DNA of 64,000 nt from Malaciobacter mytili LMG 24559 (lineage in GTDB: Bacteria; Campylobacterota; Campylobacteria; Campylobacterales; Arcobacteraceae), in the NCBI RefSeq assembly GCF_003346775.1, contig NZ_CP031219.1:2232001-2296000 (forward strand). Direction: 5' to 3'. The position numbers were made by a program, and so were the translations under genes. Below, piece by piece: positions 29,054 to 30,468 of the stretch (positions are counted from its first letter, which is position 1; every line of letters starts with the position of its first letter). The notes under the pieces were generated by a model. That model was not told the origin of the DNA. It did not search any database and was given only the letters and a program-made list of their open reading frames with translations.

Positions 29054-30061
29054 TTAGTTACCAAATTCCGCTATTAGTGATTCTAAATCTGCATCATCCA
29101 CAACATCTGCTGTGTTATCTCCATGAATATGTTTTGCTACAGCTATTTCTTGATGAGAACCTTCATCTTCAAATAGATTATTTAAATAAATTGATAATTT
29201 TCTAATTACTGCCATTACTCTTTCAATTTTTTGTCTATTAATATCATGAAATTGCATTAATTCCATAGCTTCAAAAATTTGCATATTTTCTGCATCTAAT
29301 TTACCACTAATTGCAGAAATCCCTTCTTTTATTTTAGAAGCTTCTTCTAAATGTTGATTAAAAACTGAAATATTTGGAAATTTTTTATTTAAAGAGTCAA
29401 GTAGAGCTATTTGTTTTACTAAAAATTCATCAAATGATTTAATACCTCTTTGAACATCATTATTATCATCTAAAATAAAACTTAATACATCAAATATTTT
29501 AGATGCTTTTTCTTCTGAGTCATTAGCCACTTGGCTTAACTGATTTACTACTTTTGTGTCTTTTTCTGCTGGTAAAGGGAAAATCCCACTATCTATTTTA
29601 GACACTATATCATCTTCATCTGGTTTAGCATTATTTTCATTTACAGTTACTTTCTTTTCTACCATAGGTTCTTTAAGAGGCTCACTATCAGTTATACCAT
29701 CAATCCCTGCTAAAATATCATCAAAGTTTTCTTCATCAATTGTTTCTTCTTCAACATCATTTAAATTATCAGTTACACCATCAATACCTTTTAAAAGCTC
29801 ATCTATATCATCATTTGATACAGGACTATTATCATCCTCAGCTTCATCTATACTTGCTAAAATGTCATCTAAATCATCTTGTGAAGTTATTGAATTGTCT
29901 TCTTCGTCTATTATATTACTTTCAGATAATAATTTTTCAATATCATCATTTGACATAGGGTCATTTGACATTTCTTCCGTAGTAACTTCTTCTGACTTTT
30001 CATTTTCATTTAAATCTAAGCCATTCATTAGTGATTCAATTTCTTCTTGACTCATACTCAT
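29054..30061 (-). CDS. cheZ: CheZ-like CheY-P phosphatase with repeated FliM-type docking motifs
   Basis: A 335-residue protein encoded directly after cheY. Residues 260-300 are one helix with the CheZ active-site pattern: Asp273 and Gln277 in HDINRQKIERVMAVI correspond to the Asp/Gln pair of QDLTGQ in CheZ. The C-terminus (DDADLESLIAEFGN) resembles the CheY-binding tail helix of CheZ. The first 120 residues are acidic and carry five copies of a FliM-N-like motif: SQEEIESLM (4-12), SNDDIEKLL (37-45), SQDDLDDIL (60-68), SNDDIDELL (82-90) and ENFDDIL (111-117). FliM uses such a peptide to bind CheY-P. Remote CheZ homologues are known in Helicobacter and Campylobacter; the repeated motifs are my observation. 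Confidence 0.8.
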   Translation of the reverse strand: MSMSQEEIESLMNGLDLNENEKSEEVTTEEMSNDPMSNDDIEKLLSESNIIDEEDNSITSQDDLDDILASIDEAEDDNSPVSNDDIDELLKGIDGVTDNLNDVEEETIDEENFDDILAGIDGITDSEPLKEPMVEKKVTVNENNAKPDEDDIVSKIDSGIFPLPAEKDTKVVNQLSQVANDSEEKASKIFDVLSFILDDNNDVQRGIKSFDEFLVKQIALLDSLNKKFPNISVFNQHLEEASKIKEGISAISGKLDAENMQIFEAMELMQFHDINRQKIERVMAVIRKLSIYLNNLFEDEGSHQEIAVAKHIHGDNTADVVDDADLESLIAEFGN

Positions 30062-30093: not shown

Positions 30094-30468
30094 TTAGTGA
30101 TTTTTTAAAACCCCATCAAGTTTCTCTTTTAAGACATCTGCACTAAATGGTTTAACAATATAGTTATTTACACCAGCTTTTAAAGCAGTGATAACTTCAG
30201 ACTTTCCACCCTCTGTTGTAATCATAATAATCGGAGTTTTTTGATGATTACCTTCCGATCTAACCTTTTTAACTAACTCTAGACCATTCATATTTGGCAT
30301 ATTCCAGTCAGTTAAAATAATATCATATTTCCCTTCAGATAATAATTTCCAAGCTTTCACACCATCTTCAGCTTCATCAAAATCCTCTTTTGAAAATCCA
30401 AGTTGCATTACTACATTACCAATAATTCTTCTCATAGTAGAACTATCATCAACTATTAAAATTCTCAT
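30094..30468 (-). CDS. cheY: CheY, chemotaxis response regulator
   Basis: A 124-residue single-domain receiver. The acidic pair is Asp7-Asp8, the phospho-acceptor Asp54 is in LTDWNMPNMNG, Thr84/Thr85 follow in IMITTEGG and Lys106 in YIVKPFSAD. There is no output domain, so it acts by binding the motor switch. It is the first gene of the operon continuing into the CheZ-like protein and basal-body genes. Confidence 0.95.
   Translation of the reverse strand: MRILIVDDSSTMRRIIGNVVMQLGFSKEDFDEAEDGVKAWKLLSEGKYDIILTDWNMPNMNGLELVKKVRSEGNHQKTPIIMITTEGGKSEVITALKAGVNNYIVKPFSADVLKEKLDGVLKNH

Follow-up and report, generated by a model that had tools for sequence, protein, structure and literature searches.

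The window, i.e., the 64,000-nucleotide stretch of Malaciobacter mytili LMG 24559 analysed here, contains a flagellar gene cluster in which cheY is directly followed by an open reading frame for a protein with a long, acidic N-terminal arm. The question raised by this locus is which protein is encoded there, and what an arm with repeated short motifs might do in it. A sequence-only reading had proposed a CheZ-like phosphatase with five tandem FliM-type CheY-docking motifs. On the sequence and structure-prediction evidence presented below, the arm is a real, conserved and lineage-specific elaboration of a known enzyme, to which a docking hypothesis can be attached. The features are listed in Table 1.

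Table 1. Features of the cheY-cheZ locus, in window coordinates.
Feature	Position	Strand	Evidence or remark
cheY (CheYz type), 124 aa, directly upstream of cheZ	30094..30468	(-)	
cheZ coding sequence, 335 aa + stop	29054..30061	(-)	ORF listing, NF041271 match
Candidate docking motif 1, SQEEIESLM (residues 4-12), FliM-like	30026..30052	(-)	In all Campylobacterota CheZ tested
Candidate docking motif 2, SNDDIEKLL (residues 37-45), predicted helix 40-47	29927..29953	(-)	
Candidate docking motif 3, SQDDLDDIL (residues 60-68), predicted helix 65-69	29858..29884	(-)	
Candidate docking motif 4, SNDDIDELL (residues 82-90), predicted helix 83-94	29792..29818	(-)	
Candidate docking motif 5, divergent, DEENFDDIL (residues 109-117), predicted helix 111-118	29711..29737	(-)	
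Putative phosphatase hairpin, two long helices (residues 167-227, 232-298)	29168..29563	(-)	NF041271, AlphaFold, PDB profile match
Putative catalytic pair Asp273-x-x-x-Gln277	29231..29245	(-)	Alignment with E. coli CheZ DLTGQ, conservation
Putative C-terminal CheY-docking tail, core DDADLESLI (residues 322-330), predicted helix 323-334	29072..29098	(-)	

The phosphatase half and its neighbours

The NCBIfam family NF041271 (protein phosphatase CheZ) matches residues 127-334 of the protein with E = 1.5e-33 and 116 bits. This score is below the curated equivalog cut-off of 350 bits; given that the cut-off is exceeded in only 24 of the 298 genomes of the phylum, all from one genus, it defines a subgroup and not the whole family. 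The Pfam family CheZ (PF04344) matches weakly (15.6 bits, E 0.016), short of its gathering score of 30.7, and it matches 50 of 79 homologues at E up to 0.1. By these scores, the window protein is a remote CheZ and not a member of PF04344.

In the alignment of the 79 homologues, Asp273 and Gln277 are invariant, as are M3, Q5 and E6 at the N-terminus. When a profile of these homologues was compared with all PDB sequences, the best match was E. coli CheZ 1KMI (E 0.015), in an alignment that pairs Asp273-Ile-Asn-Arg-Gln277 (DINRQ) with DLTGQ. The CheZ fold of PF04344 is a long helical hairpin that dimerises into a four-helix bundle. AlphaFold predicts both hairpin helices in the single chain, with pLDDT mostly around or above 90, and the C-terminal helix; a fold search against the PDB returned generic helical hairpins only, with CheZ unlisted, which for such a fold decides nothing. 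A lack of structural likeness to CheZ, which the sequence-only reading had named as refuting, did not come to light. The C-terminus contains DDADLESLIAEFGN, and in the tail DDADLESLIAEF, where the last helix is predicted, D325 and L329 are at least 90% conserved. Both the Asp/Gln pair and the CheZ-like tail described in the sequence-only reading are present, and its assignment to CheZ is borne out by the NF041271 match, the invariant pair, the predicted helices and the best profile match. These results support the protein being a Campylobacterota CheZ, i.e., a putative phosphatase for the neighbouring CheYz. CheZ is the enzyme by which CheY-P, the signal for swimming direction, is turned off.

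The position directly behind cheY, put forward in the same reading, was confirmed: the cheZ reading frame starts 32 nt after the cheY stop, on the same strand. The next flagellar gene (rod-type) follows 22 nt after the end of cheZ, and the surrounding flagellar cluster also contains FliF, FliG and FliH-like proteins, the names of these neighbours being taken from sequence inspection. The closest solved structure to the window's CheYz is H. pylori CheY. An open frame of 164 aa lies antisense to the arm (29556-30050, + strand), and is probably a side effect of how acidic and repeat-like the sequence is there.

According to the excerpts used here of Mao et al. (2022; PMC9321776), the corresponding Arcobacter gene pair is already annotated as cheYz-cheZ, and is a remnant of an ancestral F3 system that is now driven by an F7 kinase. 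The same excerpts argue that CheYz is the FliM-binding CheY, and report that FliM-contact residues are kept in it. Given this annotation, the Arcobacteraceae CheZ phosphatase itself is already known; the new part is the N-terminal arm with its motifs.

A second CheZ-like protein, of only 119-168 aa, was observed at loci L065, L195, L196 and L197; it has a D-x-x-x-Q helix and a C-terminal docking-type tail. In the window's genome it is encoded at L065 1351-1707 (G000:C1 around 934423-934779). At three of these four loci, that of the window's genome among them, its gene lies beside one for a methyl-accepting chemotaxis protein. Its N-terminus is of the MTQEELDA type in two other genera (L195, L196), and this has been lost in the window's genus.

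The N-terminal arm and its motifs

The FliM-type docking peptide was defined as an amphipathic helix with the pattern S-x-[DE]-[DE]-[IL]-[DE]-x-L-[LM]. A strict pattern fits four of the five arm motifs, the fifth having a Phe and no serine. The motifs start 22-33 residues apart, and AlphaFold predicts short helices at all five. With four strict copies, one divergent copy and a helix predicted at each, the arm fits the description of such a peptide. The first 150 residues comprise 52 acidic and 7 basic ones; when the same acidic region was shuffled 100,000 times, 98.6% of the shuffles contained no strict motif and the maximum was two, against four observed. Hence, the proposal of five tandem motifs stands as to their positions, predicted helices and excess over shuffles, and has to be qualified for motif 5. 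A sixth short helix is predicted just before the hairpin (residues 149-157, EDDIVSKID, 29591-29617), where the docking pattern is not matched. Calmodulin, found by phmmer against the PDB (E 0.03-0.1) through the acidic arm, was rejected as an effect of composition.

The term FliM-type proved apt for motif 1, and less so for the others. A position-specific scoring matrix built only from the CheZ C-terminal tails of other families gave scores of 18.9 for motif 2 and 12.5 for motif 4, and none of 4000 shuffles reached the observed scores at any of the top four ranks. A matrix built from the N-termini of FliM and CheZ supported the internal motifs weakly (rank-wise P 0.01-0.07, joint P 0.0005), and a model from these N-termini alone recovered motif 1 and FliM, and none of the internal motifs. 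This indicates that the internal motifs do not simply copy the FliM peptide, and look closer to the tail of CheZ itself. Thus, by sequence likeness, motif 1 alone is closest to FliM, and the internal motifs resemble the C-terminal CheY-docking tail of CheZ.

A six-frame search of the whole genome with a motif model returned the five CheZ motifs and the CheZ tail (six matches), the FliM N-terminus and the tail of the second CheZ-like protein, followed by noise; given that the model includes the window's own motifs, the high scores are partly circular, and the search shows specificity more than independent significance. Weaker matches outside CheZ and FliM were, by eye, in unrelated proteins or in enolase. 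Single matches to so short a motif also arise by chance, that in enolase being an example.

Among the 147 Campylobacterota CheZ proteins tested, the N-terminal motif is present in all 88 from Arcobacteraceae and in all 59 from other families. In contrast, at least one internal motif is found in 87 of the 88 Arcobacteraceae proteins (89 of 90 with a wider pattern) and in none of the 59 others, the Arcobacteraceae mean being 2.4 internal motifs vs 0.27 expected from shuffles. Few Arcobacteraceae CheZ match the strict pattern in full, and a looser pattern fits most of the extra motifs. In the window's genus, the motif columns have a conservation of 0.87, compared with 0.47 in the rest of the arm (permutation P 0.003). 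The motif columns are likewise more conserved in three larger genera (P 0.0008-0.03), while the difference is not significant in two small genera. The arm is otherwise acidic and fast-changing, and its length varies freely. These values show the motifs to be conserved islands, in agreement with the expectation that they recur in related genomes, and indicate that the internal motifs, as judged from the compared proteins, are an Arcobacteraceae addition to CheZ.

The arms of some genera contain near-identical tandem units such as SIDDILAGIDGIVDD. The largest array seen, of six internal docking-type motifs in addition to the motif at either end, is in a CheZ of 427 aa (genome G034, L185 1-3401). 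The only one of the 90 Arcobacteraceae CheZ without an internal motif under the wider pattern (genome G070, L164) nevertheless has an arm of ~150 residues.

Gene order follows the same division: in 89 of 90 Arcobacteraceae cheY immediately precedes cheZ, which it does at none of the 60 CheZ loci of other Campylobacterota families. In a midpoint-rooted tree, the Arcobacteraceae CheZ are all on one side of a long branch, with a support of 100/100. Since the internal motifs and the upstream cheY mark the same lineage, they most likely arose on the same stem, and should be counted as one event and not as independent evidence.

Possible roles of the arm

The two classical ligands of CheY-P, FliM and the tail of CheZ, bind it at the same face. 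Given that the arm helices are of the same kind, the simplest reading is that each of them can hold CheYz-P. The active site, with Asp273 and Gln277, would lie on the long helical hairpin, and CheY-P would be docked by the C-terminal helix in the manner of other CheZ proteins. To this the disordered, acidic arm would add five short helices like those of the CheZ tail and the N-terminus of FliM, and each of the five may bind the α4-β5-α5 face of CheYz-P. A chain would then offer about six docking sites for a single active site, and these numbers would double in a dimer. Through its tether to the active site, the arm should gather CheY-P close to the enzyme, from where it would be handed to the hairpin; while CheY-P was held by the arm, the face needed by FliM would be hidden. 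One would then expect CheY-P to be locally more abundant at the enzyme and to be buffered, and the arm to compete with FliM; a phosphate sink, as proposed in the sequence-only reading, may be a further effect. The arm is probably not catalytic itself, because phosphatase function was left intact when residues 1-39 of H. pylori CheZ were deleted (PMC11237671).

We infer CheY-P binding, multivalency and an effect on switching from these considerations. That the arm docks CheYz-P, i.e., that it is a multivalent CheY-P capture arm on a phosphatase, whatever the main consequence, seems to us rather probable. It is only tentatively that we extend this to an Arcobacteraceae CheZ that holds several CheY-P at a time, competes with FliM, and determines motor bias through how many copies of the repeated peptide it carries; the function of the H. 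pylori CheZ N-terminus would then be explained by the same N-terminal peptide.

A narrower account, in which the arm binds CheY-P mainly to speed catalysis through avidity and tethering, with negligible buffering or motor competition, is possible though doubtful. It does not exclude the docking of CheYz-P by the arm, being a sub-case that shares the docking step. Tethering through the C-terminal helix is an established mode of CheZ, of which 1KMI is a solved chain. The dispensability of the H. pylori N-terminus for phosphatase function (PMC11237671) argues against this account, though only one motif was lost there.

We regard it as unlikely that the motifs dock a partner other than CheYz-P, such as another CheY, the receiver domain of CheV or CheA, or a polar scaffold, and that the arm mainly localises CheZ. 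Such partners are conceivable, given that in H. pylori it is ChePep, and not CheA, that brings CheZ to the pole (PMC11237671; PMC7750401), and that the excerpts of PMC9321776 describe five CheY homologues in Arcobacter. However, according to the same excerpts, W58, K91 and K119 are kept only in CheYz, F3-CheY and F14-CheY. Moreover, the motif is common to FliM and the CheZ tail, both of which are CheY-P ligands.

Finally, an ordinary CheZ with an acidic low-complexity linker, in which the motif likeness is a by-product of composition and only motif 1 and the C-terminal tail matter, would agree with the acidity of the arm, its freely changing length and the genome that has no internal motif, but is very improbable, since composition-preserving shuffles do not yield the motifs, helices are predicted at them, and their columns are conserved well above the surroundings in most genera (two not significant).

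If the preferred reading, with CheYz-P docking on the repeated motifs, is true, this CheZ would illustrate how signalling can be tuned in nature through the number of docking motifs that a protein carries.

Comparison with known CheZ proteins

With the CheZ of other Campylobacterota (H. pylori, NF041271), the window protein has in common the D-x-x-x-Q helix, the hairpin, the C-terminal docking tail and an N-terminal motif (TQEELDALM or SQEEIEALM). Those proteins have ~241 aa and one N-terminal motif, whereas Arcobacteraceae CheZ have a median of 323 aa and, with the exception noted above, at least one internal motif; they also differ in having cheY directly upstream. The N-terminal region of H. 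pylori CheZ was described in 2024 as being of unknown function, and deletion of residues 1-39, which include the N-terminal motif, affected neither phosphatase function nor the role in biofilms (PMC11237671). Given that the FliM-like motif 1 is common to every Campylobacterota CheZ tested, the question of the H. pylori N-terminus becomes a peptide-binding test.

A literature search for CheZ proteins with several docking motifs, or with FliM-like ones, returned nothing relevant, and no mention of the N-terminal motif array was found in the excerpts of PMC9321776. According to these excerpts, the lineage swapped its chemosensory kinase system and kept cheYZ.

The active-site helix and the C-terminal CheY-P-binding helix both have counterparts in E. 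coli CheZ (PF04344, 1KMI), where DLTGQ corresponds to DINRQ, although the window protein scores below the Pfam cut-off. To our knowledge, E. coli CheZ has no FliM-like N-terminus and no internal motifs. The likeness to FliM is that of SQDEIDALL in the FliM of the window's genome to SQEEIESLM in CheZ; FliM, however, has one copy, at its N-terminus, whereas the window's CheZ has five in the arm of one phosphatase.
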